From Deltaproteobacteria bacterium (GTDB lineage Bacteria > Myxococcota > Myxococcia > Myxococcales > Anaeromyxobacteraceae), in assembly GCA_016214955.1 (NCBI GenBank), contig JACRMN010000011.1:1-64000 (forward strand): DNA of 64,000 nucleotides, given 5' to 3'. The translations under genes were made by a program, and so were the position numbers. Positions 26,246 to 35,100 of this stretch are shown piece by piece (the first letter of the stretch is position 1; every line of letters begins with the position of its first letter). The notes under the pieces were generated by a model. The model was not told the DNA's origin. It worked only from the letters and a program-made list of their open reading frames with translations, and ran no database searches.

Positions 26246-27526
<1,281 letters not shown>

Positions 27527-27552: not shown

Positions 27553-28782
<1,230 letters not shown>

Positions 28783-28968: not shown

Positions 28969-29817
28969 CTACCTCCCCGCCGCCACCCGCGGCCGGACCG
29001 TCACCCACGAAGGGTGGGCCCGGTTGTCGAGGTGGATCACCTCCGCCGTCTTCCCCTCGGCGCGGAGCGCCGCGAGGACCGTCTGGAGCCGTTGCAGCTT
29101 CGGCGCGGCCTCGCCGCCGCCGAGCCGGATCTGGGTGCCCTGCTCGCCCGCGTACACCGTCACGCCCTCGGTGCCGTCGAGGTGGATCTCGGCGAGGGGG
29201 AGCTGCCTGCCGAGGCCGGCCTCGGCCCAGGCGACGGCGAGGGAGAGCGCGCCCTGCAGGAGCGGCTCGACGTCGCCGCGCCGCTGCACGTAGTCGTCGC
29301 GGGTGAAGCCGGTGACCAACGGCAGGTCGAGCCCGTCGCCGGGCGCGGCCCGCTTGAAGACGTGGCCGCCCGGGTCCACCAGGTAGAGGCCGCCCAGGTC
29401 CACCAGCGCCACCGCGCGGCGCTCGGTGATCGAGACCTCCAGGGCCGGCGGGTAGCGGCGCCGCACCTCGGCCCGGGCCACCCAGGGGTGGCGCTCCAGG
29501 GCGCGGGCCATGGCGTCCACGTCGGCGAGCAGCAAGTTGTCGCCGGCCTTCACCGGCGAGAGGTCGCGGAGCTCCTCGGCGGTGGCCCTCTGGCTGGAGG
29601 CGAAGCGGATCTCGGCGATGCGCAGCGCCGGCCCCCCGGTCAGGTAGCGCCAGCCGCGGTGGGCGCCCAGGGCGGCGAGCCCGGTCAGGAGCAGCACGGC
29701 GAGGACGCGACCGGTCGCGCGGGCTCGCTGGCCCGCCCGGGCCTGCACCACGGCGCGATCGACTCGCCTCCGGTTCCGACCCCGCCCCACGCACCGCCCC
29801 CAGACCCCGCCCCGCAC
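28969..29817 (-). CDS. ftsQ: Cell division protein FtsQ/DivIB
   Basis: Up to 282 residues from a GTG at 29817; a second in-frame GTG at 29790 is also possible. There is a basic cytoplasmic N-terminus, one membrane helix ([19 protein letters not shown]), then a POTRA domain ('[59 protein letters not shown]'-type layout, abbreviated here) and the beta domain with '[29 protein letters not shown]'. It bridges cytoplasmic and periplasmic division proteins with FtsL and FtsB. In most genomes it directly follows ddl; here 3.4 kb of opposite-strand genes intervene, so it needs its own promoter, facing away from the cytochrome module. Confidence 0.92.
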
Positions 29818-29914
29818 CCGCGCCCCCAGCTACCAGGCGCTATCGCCGGGAGCAGCATGCCCGATGGATCGCATTTGGCAAGTTTTCGGACCGAGGGCGC
29901 TTTCCGGCGCTGAG

Positions 29915-30007: not shown

Positions 30008-30346
30008 ATGGCAGGTACGTTGCGGGGTGCGCTGGCGCTGGCGCTGGCGAGCCTGTGGGTGGTGGCGGGGGCGGCCGAGGCGGCCGGGAAGAAGAGCCTG
30101 GCGCCCATCGCCCCCGAGGAAGCGGTCTCGACCCACAGCCCGTTCGAGGCGGGCGAGTGCGGCTTCTGTCACGCCGGCGACCCGAAGGCCAAGAAGGGCG
30201 GCAAGCTGGTCCGCGCCGCCAACCAGCTCTGCTTCGACTGCCACGAGGACTTCCGCTCGGCGGTGAAGAACCACCCGAGCGGCAAGGCCGCCTGCGTGAG
30301 CTGCCACTCGCCCCACAACTCCAGGAAGCGGAAGCTGCTGCTCTAG
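30008..30346 (+). CDS. Triheme cytochrome c (paired-CXXCH type)
   Basis: 112 residues with a signal peptide (MAGTLRGALALALASLWVVAGAAEA). There are three heme sites, CGFCH, CFDCH and CVSCH, each followed by polar or His-containing sequence. The spacing 'F.AGECGFCHAGDP...NQLCFDCHEDFRS..KNHPSGKAACVSCHSPHNS' matches the doubled-CXXCH family found in multiheme respiratory cytochromes. Mature size is about 9 kDa. It is the first gene of a plus-strand module inserted in the dcw cluster, probably a small periplasmic electron shuttle to the larger cytochrome encoded 158 bases downstream. Confidence 0.85.
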   Translation: MAGTLRGALALALASLWVVAGAAEAAGKKSLAPIAPEEAVSTHSPFEAGECGFCHAGDPKAKKGGKLVRAANQLCFDCHEDFRSAVKNHPSGKAACVSCHSPHNSRKRKLLL

Positions 30347-30503
30347 CCGAGGGCCCGACGCACCCCCCATGCGCGCGCACTTCCAGAATTCCACAGGTGA
30401 CGGCGGTCAATGCTTCCGCCGTCCCCGCTGGCCTAGATCCGCACAGGCGCACCGAATCCTTCTGACGGGACCCCGCGAGGGGACCCCTGCGGGAGCTCGA
30501 ACG

Positions 30504-31589
30504 ATGACGGCCCACCTCCTCCGCCTCTCCGCCCTGCTGGCCTCGCTCCTCGTCGCGCTGCCGGCCCTGGGCGCCGGGAAGAACGAGCCGCGGGCGCTGA
30601 CCAGGCACTCCTTCAAGGTCTCCAACGCGCCGCTGCCCGCCACCGAGAAGCCGGGCTGGAGCCACGGCCCCTACGAGGCCGGCGACTGCAGCATCTGCCA
30701 CGTCAACGCCGACCCCAAGAAGCCCGGGCCGCTGCAGAAGACGGGCAACGAGCTCTGCTTCTCCTGCCACGACGAGTTCCAGGAGATCATGGCGCGCAAG
30801 TACAAGCACGTGCCGGCGGTGGAGAGCTGCCTCAACTGCCACAACGCCCACAACTCCAAGGAGCGCGGCCTGCTCCACACCGAGCTCGGCGCCGGGTGCA
30901 AGGACTGCCACCGCCCGATCCGGGACATCGTCGAGAAGTCGCGGGTGAAGCACGGCGCCATGACGGCCGGGAAGAAGTGCGCCAACTGCCACAACCCCCA
31001 CGGCGCCAACGTCGAGAAGCTGCTCATCCAGCTCCCCTTCGACCAGTGCGTCAACTGCCACGCCGTGGACGACATGAAGGACGAGAAGGGCGTCACCCTC
31101 ACCAACTTCAAGAAGTGGCTGGACGACAACAAGGTGTGGCACGCGCCGGTGGAGGCCAAGGACTGCTCCGCCTGCCACCGCACCCACGGCGGCGACAACT
31201 TCCGCCTGCTGGTGGCCGAGTACCCGGCCAAGTTCTACTCGCCCTACGACCTGAAGAACTACGCGCTCTGCTACGGCTGCCACAACGAGAAGGTGGTGTC
31301 GGAGCCGGAGACCAGGACGCTCACCAACTTCCGCGACGGCACCAAGAACCTGCACTACGTGCACGTCCACAAGTCGGACCGCGGCCGCACCTGCCGCGCC
31401 TGCCACGAGGTCCACGCCTCCAAGCAGGCCCACCACATCCGCGACGGCGTCCCCTACGGCCCCAAGGGCTGGATCCTGAAGATCAACTACACCAAGACGC
31501 CCACCGGCGGCTCCTGCGCCAAGACCTGCCACGACACCAAGAGCTACGTGAACCGGGGCACCCCGGCCGCGCCGGCCAAGAAGAAGTAG
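30504..31589 (+). CDS. Multiheme cytochrome c (nine CXXCH plus one CX3CH)
   Basis: 361 residues with signal peptide MTAHLLRLSALLASLLVALPALGA. There are nine canonical heme sites (CSICH, CFSCH, CLNCH, CKDCH, CANCH, CVNCH, CSACH, CYGCH and CRACH) and a tenth, atypical CAKTCH near the C-terminus. The N-terminal part, 'GPYEAGDCSICHVNADPKKPGP..KTGNELCFSCHDEF', closely parallels the triheme protein encoded upstream, so the two share an ancestral unit. Similar proteins carry electrons in the periplasm or to outer-membrane conduits during metal or nitrogen-oxide respiration. No nitrite or hydroxylamine reductase motif is seen. The acceptor is unknown. The Lys-rich tail ends KKK. Confidence 0.88.
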   Translation: MTAHLLRLSALLASLLVALPALGAGKNEPRALTRHSFKVSNAPLPATEKPGWSHGPYEAGDCSICHVNADPKKPGPLQKTGNELCFSCHDEFQEIMARKYKHVPAVESCLNCHNAHNSKERGLLHTELGAGCKDCHRPIRDIVEKSRVKHGAMTAGKKCANCHNPHGANVEKLLIQLPFDQCVNCHAVDDMKDEKGVTLTNFKKWLDDNKVWHAPVEAKDCSACHRTHGGDNFRLLVAEYPAKFYSPYDLKNYALCYGCHNEKVVSEPETRTLTNFRDGTKNLHYVHVHKSDRGRTCRACHEVHASKQAHHIRDGVPYGPKGWILKINYTKTPTGGSCAKTCHDTKSYVNRGTPAAPAKKK

Positions 31590-31598
31590 CGTGCACCC

Positions 31599-32432
31599 GT
31601 GACCCGACGTCTCCTGCTCTGGGCGCTGGGGGTGGCTCTCTCCGGGGCCGTCTGGCCGATGGCCGGCCTGGCCTTCGCCAGCGTGGAGGTGGGGCAGACC
31701 GTTGAGAACGACGAGCTGCCGACCCTCGACGGGAGGCGCGAGCTCCTGCTCTCCCGGAAGGCCCTCGCCAACGTCTTCATCTTCTTCCGCCCCAACCAGG
31801 AGCACTCCCTGGAGACGCTGCGGGCCATGGCCCTCTGCGAGAAGGAGTTCTCGGGCAAGCCGGTGCGCTTCGTGGCCGTGGTCTCGGGGAGCTGGCCGCG
31901 GGCCGAGGTGGTGGCCACGGTGGCCGAGGCCGGCATCCGGATGCCGGTGCTGGTGGACGAGGGCGACCAGCTCTACGGGAAGCTGGGCGTGCGGCTCCAC
32001 CCGGTCATCGGCATCGCCGACGACAAGCAGAGGCTCCTCGACTACGTCCCCTTCCACAAGATCAACTACTGCGACATGGTCCGCGTCCGGGTGCGCCGCG
32101 CGCTCGGCGAGGTGGACCAGGCGGCGGTCGACAGGGTGGACCACCCGCCCAAGGCGCTGATGCCCAACGAGGTGCCCGGCGCCCAGGCCCGCCGCCAGGT
32201 GAGGCTGGGCGAGCTGCTCCTCCGGAAGCAGCCGGCCAAGGCGGCCGTCCACGCCCGCATCGCCATCGAGAAGCAGCCCGGCCTGGCCTCGGCCCACGCC
32301 CTGCTGGGCAACGCGCTGGCGGCCCAGGGGAAGTGCGGCGAGGCGCAGCCAGCCTTCGCCGAGGCGCTGCGGCTCGACCCCGGGAACCTGGCCGCGGCCG
32401 ACGGCAAGAAGAGCTGCGCCGGCAAGAAGTGA
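31599..32432 (+). CDS. Exported thioredoxin-fold protein with C-terminal TPR, lacking the CXXC site
   Basis: 277 residues from the GTG at 31599, ten bases after the cytochrome stop. A signal peptide is followed by a redoxin/AhpC-like domain ('VGQTVENDELPTLDGRRELLL', 'ANVFIFFRPNQEHSLETL', 'VRFVAVVSGSWPRAEV', 'MPVLVDEGDQLYGKLGVRLHPVIGIAD'). Where redoxins have the active-site Cys after the 'FFRP' strand there is NQEHS, so classical thiol chemistry is lost. Residues from about 205 to 270 form TPR-like helices ('KAAVHARIAIEKQPGLASAHALLGNALAAQGKCGEA'). Its position suggests a scaffold or maturation factor for the cytochromes; this is inference. Confidence 0.7.
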   Translation: MTRRLLLWALGVALSGAVWPMAGLAFASVEVGQTVENDELPTLDGRRELLLSRKALANVFIFFRPNQEHSLETLRAMALCEKEFSGKPVRFVAVVSGSWPRAEVVATVAEAGIRMPVLVDEGDQLYGKLGVRLHPVIGIADDKQRLLDYVPFHKINYCDMVRVRVRRALGEVDQAAVDRVDHPPKALMPNEVPGAQARRQVRLGELLLRKQPAKAAVHARIAIEKQPGLASAHALLGNALAAQGKCGEAQPAFAEALRLDPGNLAAADGKKSCAGKK

Positions 32433-32449
32433 CGAGGGGGAGGGAATCG

Positions 32450-33190
32450 ATGCGCACGGTGCTTCGCCACGCCGCCCTGGCGGCCGCGCTCCTGGTGCTG
32501 CCGGTGTTCGGCACCGCCCACGTCGACGCCGGCGAGCTGGTCGAGAACCGCGAGCTGCCGGCGGTGGGCGGCGGCAAGGCGCCGCTGCTGGCCCGCGACA
32601 GGCTCAACGTGCTGGTGTTCTTCCGCGTCGGACAGGATCGCTCCCTCGACACCCTGCAGCGCCTGGCCGAGTGCGAGGTGGCGCTGGCCCAGAAGCCGGT
32701 GCGGCTGGTGGGGGTGGTGTCGGGCTCGGCGCCGCTGGTGGAGGTGAAGGCCCTCCTGGCCGAGACCGGGGTGAGGTCGCCGGTGCTCGTCGACGAGGGA
32801 GACCAGCTCTACGGGGCGCTGGAGCTGCGGCAGCACCCGATGATCGTCATCGTCGACCGCAAGGACCGCATCGCCGCCTTCGAGCCCTACGTGCGGTTGC
32901 GCTACTGCGAGATCGTGCGGGCCCGCATCGGCTTCCTGCTCGGGGAGGTCAAACAGGCCGAGCTCGACCGCGTGCTCCGTCCGCCCAAGGCCGAGTTCCC
33001 CAACGAGGTGGGAGGCGGCCCGGCGGTGCGCTTCGTGCGGCTGGGCGACAAGGAGCTCTCGAAGGGCAACTGCGCCCTGGCGGTGCGCGCCTTCGACAAG
33101 GCGCTGGAGCACGACCCCAGGAACGCCGAGGCGCTGGCCGGCAAGGCCCGCTGCCCCGAGGGCGCGAAGAAGCCGCTGCCGGCGAGGTAG
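32450..33190 (+). CDS. Exported thioredoxin-fold/TPR protein, paralogue of the preceding gene
   Basis: 246 residues with a GGGGGAGGG ribosome-binding region. It repeats the architecture of the gene before it: 'AGELVENRELPAVGGGKAPLL', 'LNVLVFFRVGQDRSLDTLQRL', 'PVRLVGVVSGSAPLVEV', 'SPVLVDEGDQLYGALELRQHPMIVIVD', then 'RYCEIVRARIGFLLGEVKQAELDRVLRPPKAEFPNEV' (the same PPKA..PNEV segment occurs in the paralogue) and one TPR-like unit. The redoxin active-site cysteines are again absent (VGQDRS). The two form a tandem duplication 17 bases apart. Its stop lies 9 bases from the convergent ddl stop, with no visible terminator between. Confidence 0.7.
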   Translation: MRTVLRHAALAAALLVLPVFGTAHVDAGELVENRELPAVGGGKAPLLARDRLNVLVFFRVGQDRSLDTLQRLAECEVALAQKPVRLVGVVSGSAPLVEVKALLAETGVRSPVLVDEGDQLYGALELRQHPMIVIVDRKDRIAAFEPYVRLRYCEIVRARIGFLLGEVKQAELDRVLRPPKAEFPNEVGGGPAVRFVRLGDKELSKGNCALAVRAFDKALEHDPRNAEALAGKARCPEGAKKPLPAR

Positions 33191-33199
33191 ACCGGGCGA

Positions 33200-34126
33200 C
33201 TAGGCCTTGAGGCTCGCGCCCTCGAGCAGCCGCTCGCAGAGATCCGGGAAGGGCATGCCGTTGCCGGCGGCGATCTTGGGCACCAGCGAGGTGGAGGTGA
33301 ACCCGGGCAGCGTGTTCACCTCCAGGATGTAGGGCGTGCCGTCCTCGGTGACGATGAAGTCGTTGCGGGTGACGCCGTCGCAGCCGAGGGCCCGGTGGGC
33401 GATCTCGCCGGCCTCGCAGACCCGGGCGTAGTGGGCCCGGGGCAGGCGGGCGGGGTAGAAGTACTCGGTGGTGCCGGGCGTGTACTTGGCGGTGTAGTCG
33501 TAGAACTCGCGCGAGGGCACCACCTCGATGGCGCCCAGCGCCTTGCCCTCCAGCACCGCCACCTGCACCTCCTTGCCGCGCACGTACTTCTCGACGATCA
33601 CCTCGCCGTGGAACGAGGCCGCGTCCTGCAGCGCCACGGTGAGCTGGCCCGCCTCGCGGACGATGTGCACGCCCACCGAGGAGCCCTCGTTGCCCGGCTT
33701 CACCACCACCGGGAAGGCGAAGGGGAGGTCGCGGGCCGTCACCGACGCGGCCCGGGTGTGGGAGAAGACGCGGTACTCCACCACCTTGAGGCCGGCGTCG
33801 CGGAAGAGCAGCTTGGAGAAGGGCTTGTCCATGCCCAGCGCCGAGGCCAGCACGCCCGAGCCGGTGTAGGGGATGCCCATCGACTCCAGCAGCCCCTGGA
33901 TGCTGCCGTCCTCGCCCCAGCGCCCGTGCAGGGCGTTGAAGGCCACGGCGACGCCCTCGGCGCGGAGCCGCTCGGCCACGTCGAGGCCCACGTCCACCAG
34001 CACCGCGTCGTACCCCTTCTGCCGCAGCGCCTCGGCGCAGGCCTTGCCGGTGTTGAGCGAGACTTCCCGCTCCGCCGACCGGCCGCCGTACAGCACCGCC
34101 ACCTTCTTCCCCGTCCACTTGCCCAT
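33200..34126 (-). CDS. ddl: D-alanine--D-alanine ligase
   Basis: 308 residues from the ATG at 34126. ATP-grasp enzyme joining two D-Ala for the peptidoglycan stem: 'VAVLYGGRSAEREVSLNTG', 'FNALHGRWGEDGSIQGLLESMGIPYTGSGVLASALGMDK', 'PVVVKPGNEGSSVGV', 'EKYVRGKEVQVAVLEG', 'EFYDYTAKY' and the metal-binding 'NDFIVTEDGTPYILEVNTLPGFTSTSL'. The EGSSVG and LPG.T.TSL signatures are diagnostic. It follows murB by 44 bases in the dcw cluster, but ftsQ, its usual next neighbour, is displaced by the cytochrome module. Confidence 0.97.
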   Translation of the reverse strand: MGKWTGKKVAVLYGGRSAEREVSLNTGKACAEALRQKGYDAVLVDVGLDVAERLRAEGVAVAFNALHGRWGEDGSIQGLLESMGIPYTGSGVLASALGMDKPFSKLLFRDAGLKVVEYRVFSHTRAASVTARDLPFAFPVVVKPGNEGSSVGVHIVREAGQLTVALQDAASFHGEVIVEKYVRGKEVQVAVLEGKALGAIEVVPSREFYDYTAKYTPGTTEYFYPARLPRAHYARVCEAGEIAHRALGCDGVTRNDFIVTEDGTPYILEVNTLPGFTSTSLVPKIAAGNGMPFPDLCERLLEGASLKA

Positions 34127-34170: not shown

Positions 34171-35100
34171 TCAGAGCGCCTCGATGCGCTCCTCTGCAAG
34201 GAACTCGCCGGCCAGTCGCACCTCCGGCTCCAGCAGGACGCCGTGCTCGGCCTTCACCCGCGATCGCGCCAGGTTGACGAGCGCCAGCACGTCGGCGGCG
34301 GTCGCCCCGCCGCGGTTGACCACGAAGTTGGCGTGGACCGTGGACCACATGGCGCCGCCGATGGCGTGTCCCTTGAGCCGCACCGCCTCGATGAGCCGGC
34401 CGGCGTGGTCTCCCGGCGGGTTGCGGAAGGTGGAGCCGAAGGTGGGCTCGGCAAGCGGCTGGGTGGCGCGGCGCTTCGCCAGGTCGGCCCGCATGGCCTC
34501 GCGGGCGGCCGCCAGGTCGCCGCGGCCGAGCCGCACCTCGATGCGGGTGCAGAGCCCCAGCGCCGGGATGCGGCTCTGCCGGTAGCCGAGCGAGAGGTCC
34601 CGCGCCTCCACCCAGCCGAGCCCGTCGGCGGTGGCGATCTCGACGCGGGTGAGCAGGTCCTTCATCTCGCCGCCGCGCGTGCCCGCGTTCATGGCCGCCA
34701 GCCCCCCCAGCGTGCCCGGGATCCCGGCGGCGAACTCGGCGCCGGTGAAGCCGGCCGCCTGGGCGGTGGCGACCAGGTGCGAGGAGGGGGCGCCGGCCGA
34801 GAGGACGAGCAGGTCGTCGCGGGCCGACTCCTCGCCGAAGCCGGGCGGCAGCCGCACCACCGCGCCGCGGATCCCGCGGTCGGCCACCAGCAGGTTGGCG
34901 CCCCCGCCCAGCGCGAACCAGGGCACGCCCATGCGCCGGCAGGCGGCCAGGAGCGCCACCAGGTCGCCGGCGTCGGCCGGGCGCACCAGCAGGTCGGCCG
35001 GGCCGCCGATGCGGATGGAGGTGCGGGGCGCCAGCGGGGCGCCCTCGGTGCGCTCGCCGCGGAGGAGGGAGCCGAGCTCCCGGAGCCAGGGGGCGGTCAC
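34171..35100 (-). CDS. murB: UDP-N-acetylenolpyruvoylglucosamine reductase
   Basis: 309 residues from a GTG at 35100 that overlaps the murC stop by 4 bases. FAD/NADPH enzyme that makes UDP-MurNAc. FAD-binding '[17 protein letters not shown]' and '[24 protein letters not shown]'; '[25 protein letters not shown]'; 'LGYRQSRIP' with the conserved Tyr-Arg; '[50 protein letters not shown]'-type substrate segment (abbreviated), and the terminal '[13 protein letters not shown]' with the conserved Glu. The Ser in GSTFRNPP is the general acid residue of the type I/II enzymes. Confidence 0.97.

Follow-up and report, generated by a model that had tools for sequence, protein, structure and literature searches.

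Cytochrome genes between ddl and ftsQ in the dcw cluster of Anaeromyxobacteraceae: an old insertion, probably a tolerated passenger

The stretch of DNA analysed here (the window, 64,000 nucleotides) lies on contig C4 of a 5.3-Mb Anaeromyxobacteraceae genome (G000). It carries the dcw cluster on its minus strand, and four plus-strand genes at 30008–33190, here called the module, separate ddl from ftsQ. An earlier note on this DNA had described these genes and the interruption of the cluster by a plus-strand group, and both the genes and their coordinates were confirmed:

26246–27526, minus strand: ftsZ
27553–28782, minus strand: ftsA
28969–29790, minus strand: ftsQ (POTRA_1, 1.6e-15; FtsQ_DivIB_C, 1.7e-10)
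29790, minus strand: GTG start codon of ftsQ, set by the conserved N-terminal sequence V[AG][10 protein letters not shown]
30008–30346, plus strand: CytA, secreted triheme c-type cytochrome of 112 aa (3 CXXCH; Paired_CXXCH_1, 3.9e-13)
30504–31589, plus strand: CytB, decaheme c-type cytochrome of 361 aa, MtrA/DmsE-related (9 CXXCH and a C-terminal CX3CH, CAKTCH)
31599–32432, plus strand: TpA, secreted protein of 277 aa with a ResA/TlpA-like thioredoxin fold lacking CXXC, and a TPR tail
32450–33190, plus strand: TpB, TpA paralogue (48% identical) of 246 aa with a shortened TPR tail
33191–33199, no strand: 9 bp separating the stop codons of the convergent TpB and ddl genes, with no terminator-like site
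33200–34126, minus strand: ddl, D-Ala-D-Ala ligase, the last Mur-side gene of the interrupted cluster (Dala_Dala_lig_C, 3.7e-54)
34171–35100, minus strand: murB

MurB and further cluster genes are encoded upstream of Ddl, and FtsA and FtsZ downstream of FtsQ; the mur genes, ddl, ftsQ, ftsA and ftsZ thus follow one another in dcw order on one strand, with the break at ddl/ftsQ. The reading frames of the module are open, and their GC3 (0.956–1.000) resembles that of the neighbouring genes. The composition difference that the earlier note had suggested looking for is therefore absent, and recent foreign DNA was ruled out on this ground. An assembly artefact was also ruled out, because the same arrangement recurs in relatives. 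Our literature search found nothing on dcw clusters with ftsQ and ddl in myxobacteria.

CytB has ten predicted c-type heme sites in one secreted chain, the CX3CH being counted as a site, as in the MtrA/DmsE-type decahemes of the Mtr, Mto and Pio conduits. All complete relatives retain the nine CXXCH motifs and the C-terminal CX3CH, and the mean column identity over their alignment is 68%, a pattern that indicates purifying selection rather than decay of the complete copies. The best solved relative of the CytB profile in the PDB was 6r2q_A (2e-25), which we take to be the MtrA chain of MtrCAB from Shewanella; the PDB search labels this chain cystathionine beta-synthase, a molecule name that does not fit its multiheme sequence. 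Furthermore, the DmsE decaheme model TIGR03508 matched all 16 CytB members. The window's CytB reached 73.4 bits against the model's cut-off of 192.2 bits, so we regard it as related to the MtrA/DmsE family without filing it as a member. It also differs from the known conduit proteins in that its last site is CX3CH and in that an adjoining MtrB-type porin and MtrC are absent. No barrel porin gene was found between ddl and ftsQ, which leaves CytB without the partner that defines an Mtr-type conduit. Elsewhere in G000, on contig C19, there is a porin–cytochrome cluster with a barrel-like gene. The structure model of CytB was too poor for use (pLDDT 41), and we read the protein from its sequence as an MtrA/DmsE-type conduit protein with a putative role in electron transfer.

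The two Tp proteins combine features that are otherwise known from cytochrome c maturation. The predicted structure of TpA is a thioredoxin fold (mean pLDDT 91.6), the fold of the catalytic thioredoxins ResA and TlpA, and its best PDB match was ResA (TM 0.88 by target); four Tp members matched the CcmH/CycH TPR model. In contrast to ResA/TlpA/CcmG thioredoxins and CcmH/NrfG-type TPR proteins, Tp carries both domains in one chain and lacks the redox site: CXXC is absent from all 22 aligned Tp proteins, which have FFRPxQxxS in its place, and the two cysteines that are invariant among them lie in the TPR part. The Tp proteins probably serve specifically in the assembly or docking of the cytochrome and are not redox enzymes. 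Counting loci, some of which are duplicates or related by descent, Tp was present only alongside CX3CH cytochromes (48 loci with, 0 without), yet 32 CX3CH loci had no Tp. For this reason, the idea that Tp is an obligate, dedicated heme-ligation factor for CX3CH was dropped. It is further weakened by three family members, G004, G016 and G019, which have no Tp and yet retain the CX3CH of CytB. The association of Tp with CX3CH is thus a lead.

Is the module peculiar to this genome? The junction was sampled in each of the 24 family genomes covered, mapped with the window's proteins. A full-type module in the same orientation was found at the junction in 14 of the 24, a count that includes G001 (ftsQ side only), G023 (ddl side only) and G014 (two contigs). 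It carries one to three Tp copies, and CytA was not found by this mapping in the module of G010. Three genomes (G004, G016 and G019) have a fast-evolving CytB alone at the junction, four (G007, G012, G015 and G018) have ddl adjoining ftsQ with no module, and the remaining three (G009, G013 and G020) have other genes there, the junction of G020 being inferred from two sides on different contigs. These other genes (loci L089, L093 and L102/L199) encode a barrel-like protein, a transporter-like protein and one or more multicopper oxidases; the oxidase of G009 is just 34% identical to those of the other two. With the module or CytB in 17 of the 24, the arrangement is not exactly the same in all relatives. 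The adjacency of ddl and ftsQ that the earlier note took as normal holds in the outgroups G025, G030, G032, G033 and G037; it fails in G028 and G034, where other sequence separates the two genes, and it is also absent around the ddl of G024, G026 and G038.

The position of the module outlasts ordinary synteny. No relative's locus was found to have the DUF2891 gene that lies beyond ftsZ, beside the window's cluster, and some positional constraint on the module is therefore possible, since 17 of the 24 genomes have kept its place. Inertia inside an essential cluster would give the same retention and may suffice as an explanation.

Relatives of the module also occur outside the family. In a scan of genome contigs (80 loci), CytB homologues of 53–60% identity with Tp directly downstream were found in Burkholderiales, Verrucomicrobia, Kiritimatiellota and others, and a CytB–Tp pair is also present in the outgroup G030. 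The outside pairs often lie in porin/cytochrome clusters. In Betaproteobacteria (e.g., L121 and L125), the genes that come after the pair encode a tetraheme protein, NHL-propeller proteins, a barrel-like protein and a 12-heme protein. Nitrospirota have the CytA and CytB regions within a single open reading frame, with Tp after it, which supports the view that the three form one functional unit. Among the loci examined, ftsQ, ftsA and ftsZ adjoin the module only in the family's own locus (L120), and no division genes were found beside the outside CytB–Tp pairs. As a separate observation, CytA-like and CytB-like regions are combined in one protein with 13 CXXCH sites at seven Nitrospirota-type loci (L133–L138 and L140), most of which have Tp after it.

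The triheme, undecaheme, NHL and barrel proteins of the Uet pathway (PMC10734462), and a TPR gene of Tenderia that seems to be transcribed together with triheme cytochromes (PMC5371394), recall the clusters of Betaproteobacteria and of contig C19 in G000. The Tenderia TPR protein is likened to Tp here by gene type, with no homology implied. Compared with these Uet and PCC3 porin–cytochrome pathways, the dcw junction has the triheme, decaheme and Tp parts only: the barrel, NHL and undecaheme proteins, which occur in one cluster in Uet, are absent there, and a comparable set is found on C19. The C19 cluster also holds a distant CytB relative. This Uet-like porin–cytochrome cluster (L118, C19 290000–305000) encodes NHL propellers, a barrel-like protein and 12-, 10-, 8- and 4-heme proteins.

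When did the module arrive? In the CytB tree, g1, g2 and g4 stand apart from g3 and g5, which matches the tree of FtsA, FtsZ, Ddl and MurB. The family's CytB copies lie on one side of a branch whose support (90/91) is not strong. Because the CytB tree tracks the main branches of the species tree, one old gain followed by losses fits best. The simplest account is a gain in the stem of the family, loss from the junction in g6 and in the clade of G009, G013 and G020, and decay in the clade of G004, where the CytB of G004, G016 and G019 has a long branch and CytA and Tp were lost. The trees are unrooted, so these calls of gain and loss rest on the outgroups. The junction map and the trees thus replace an insert peculiar to one genome with one ancestral to the family, and they agree with the earlier note's view that the genes came by insertion or transfer.

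A relocated copy adds to this history. G015, a g6 genome with a module-less junction, has CytB, TpA and TpB but no CytA on another contig, and its CytB groups with that of G000 (support 98–99). With constraint groups that were defined once the first tree was known, keeping g1 together without the G015 copy was rejected weakly (p-AU 0.03), and keeping all junction copies together without it was rejected strongly (p-AU 0.0004). These sequence comparisons indicate that the G015 copy descends from junction copies, and the module can therefore exist away from division genes.

The ftsQAZ genes appear to have a start signal of their own. A block of the form TTGnCA-N16-CATnnT lies upstream of ftsQ, and a box, GGGYGATASCGBCYGGAAGCG, comes after it; nearly all family members align here, whether or not they have the module. 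The two elements of G000 take up 29828–29881 on the minus strand:

29876–29881, minus strand: -35-like hexamer TTGCCA, recognised by family comparison only
29854–29859, minus strand: -10-like hexamer CATGCT, after a 16-bp spacer
29828–29848, minus strand: conserved 21-bp box 3' of the -10-like hexamer, with 3 mismatches to the search pattern

The two hexamers of G000 have 8 of 12 consensus matches, which is below the cut-off of the sigma-70 scan, and that scan found no promoter at the tool threshold in the window. The first hexamer reads TTGACA in the module-less G007 and G012, and some family members depart from the hexamers. The box occurs upstream of ftsQ with at most two mismatches in 21 of the 24 genomes; G000 has three mismatches, G010 has a degenerate copy, and G023, whose ftsQ is off the contig seen, stands outside the count. 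Because the pattern was built from the ftsQ sites, low mismatch there is given by construction, and the result concerns uniqueness: matches elsewhere (12) were near the control level (9). Several outgroups have short ddl–ftsQ spacers with little room for such a block. No known RNA was found in the ftsQ–cytA spacer, and no conserved element was seen upstream of cytA across genera. The block and box could form a possible operator or leader of ftsQAZ with promoter activity. Since the block is present in module-bearing and module-less genomes alike, it is independent of the insert today, and the proposal that the insertion gives ftsQAZ a separate promoter is not supported; the block may have predated the insert or arrived with it.

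At the other end of the module, the stop codons of TpB and ddl are 9 bp apart, and the two genes overlap in G002 and G014. Terminator scans near the junction found none except in G021, and the scan of the window gave a single terminator, no more than chance would yield. The lack of intrinsic terminators carries little weight in a GC-rich genome, in which Rho may act. With the stop codons this close and no terminator seen, antisense read-through is possible, and the 3' ends of the ddl and TpB transcripts are likely to overlap. The convergent Tp–ddl gap ranges from -11 to 1567 bp across genomes, a variability that argues against a tuned device. By eye, the gap in two g5 genomes (G006 and G011) contains transposase-like and HNH-type genes (L086, 2956–3852; L091, 9598–10896).

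Could the module couple cell division to respiration? Its layout shares with the noncontiguous operons, or excludons, of Staphylococcus aureus, where menaquinone genes are involved (PMC7154746), a set of genes that runs against the direction of the surrounding cluster and convergent ends with no visible terminator. It differs in that ftsQ has its own promoter-like block and in that the junction is known here from sequence alone. In such an arrangement, Mur-side transcripts would cross the module in antisense and continue into ftsQAZ, and the cytochrome and division mRNAs would repress each other, coupling division output to respiratory state. The closely spaced or overlapping stop codons, the near-absence of terminators and the retention of the arrangement in 17 of 24 genomes, despite the decay of synteny further out, would fit it; the variable gap with unrelated genes in G006 and G011, the conserved block of ftsQ's own and the seven genomes lacking the module at the junction make it unlikely. 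We give slightly less credence still to its most specific form, a switch between cytochrome transcription and Mur-to-Fts read-through, with mutual silencing by antisense pairing or polymerase collision, that would tie the supply of FtsQAZ to the electron-acceptor state in Anaeromyxobacteraceae. The link to respiratory state raised in the earlier note is not supported: seven genomes lack the module at the junction or have other genes in its place, and no division genes adjoin it in G015 or in any of the outside loci examined.

The losses and replacements at the junction, together with the long-branched CytB of G004, G016 and G019 that has outlived CytA and Tp, might suggest a neutral passenger with no current use in electron transfer. 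This is improbable, as the complete copies keep intact frames, all ten heme sites including CX3CH, and 68% mean column identity. Alternatively, the ddl–ftsQ junction could be a hot spot that gathers cargo, the family having gained the module several times independently; the other genes at the junction in G009, G013 and probably G020, and the other sequence in G028 and G034, are what a hot spot would leave. We consider this doubtful too, though a shade less so, because the family's CytB copies cluster and track the main species branches, with one orientation and one gene order, and in the CytB tree no junction copy was seen among the outside lineages.

We therefore favor, with a probability of about 0.68, the reading that the module is an old, self-contained electron-transfer cassette and a tolerated passenger at ddl–ftsQ, not a division-control device. 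The cassette would have entered at ddl–ftsQ no later than the common ancestor of the Anaeromyxobacteraceae, and its later inheritance would mostly have been in place. The most likely role of CytA and CytB would be electron transfer between the periplasm and the outer membrane, and the Tp proteins, with ResA/TlpA-like folds that lost the thiol pair and carry TPRs, would be their probable assembly or docking partners. The cassette would be read from its own side and ftsQAZ from the conserved promoter just upstream of ftsQ, with or without the cassette, which would make the junction a tolerated passenger site in an essential cluster.

The genes are of a known kind, their place and their protein partner Tp are unusual, and the old family-level insertion is real: a respiratory cassette has kept its position within an essential division cluster while a family radiated. 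The triheme, decaheme and pseudothioredoxin/TPR proteins form a unit that recurs across several phyla, and Tp may have gone unnoticed as a partner of decaheme cytochromes with CX3CH. Whether division and respiration are linked can be tested in the natural variants, which include genomes without the module, with CytB only and with a relocated copy. Elsewhere in G000, on contig C3 (L117, about 130800–131550), we also observed a stand-alone Tp homologue (46%) that has two cysteines only and no adjoining cytochrome.
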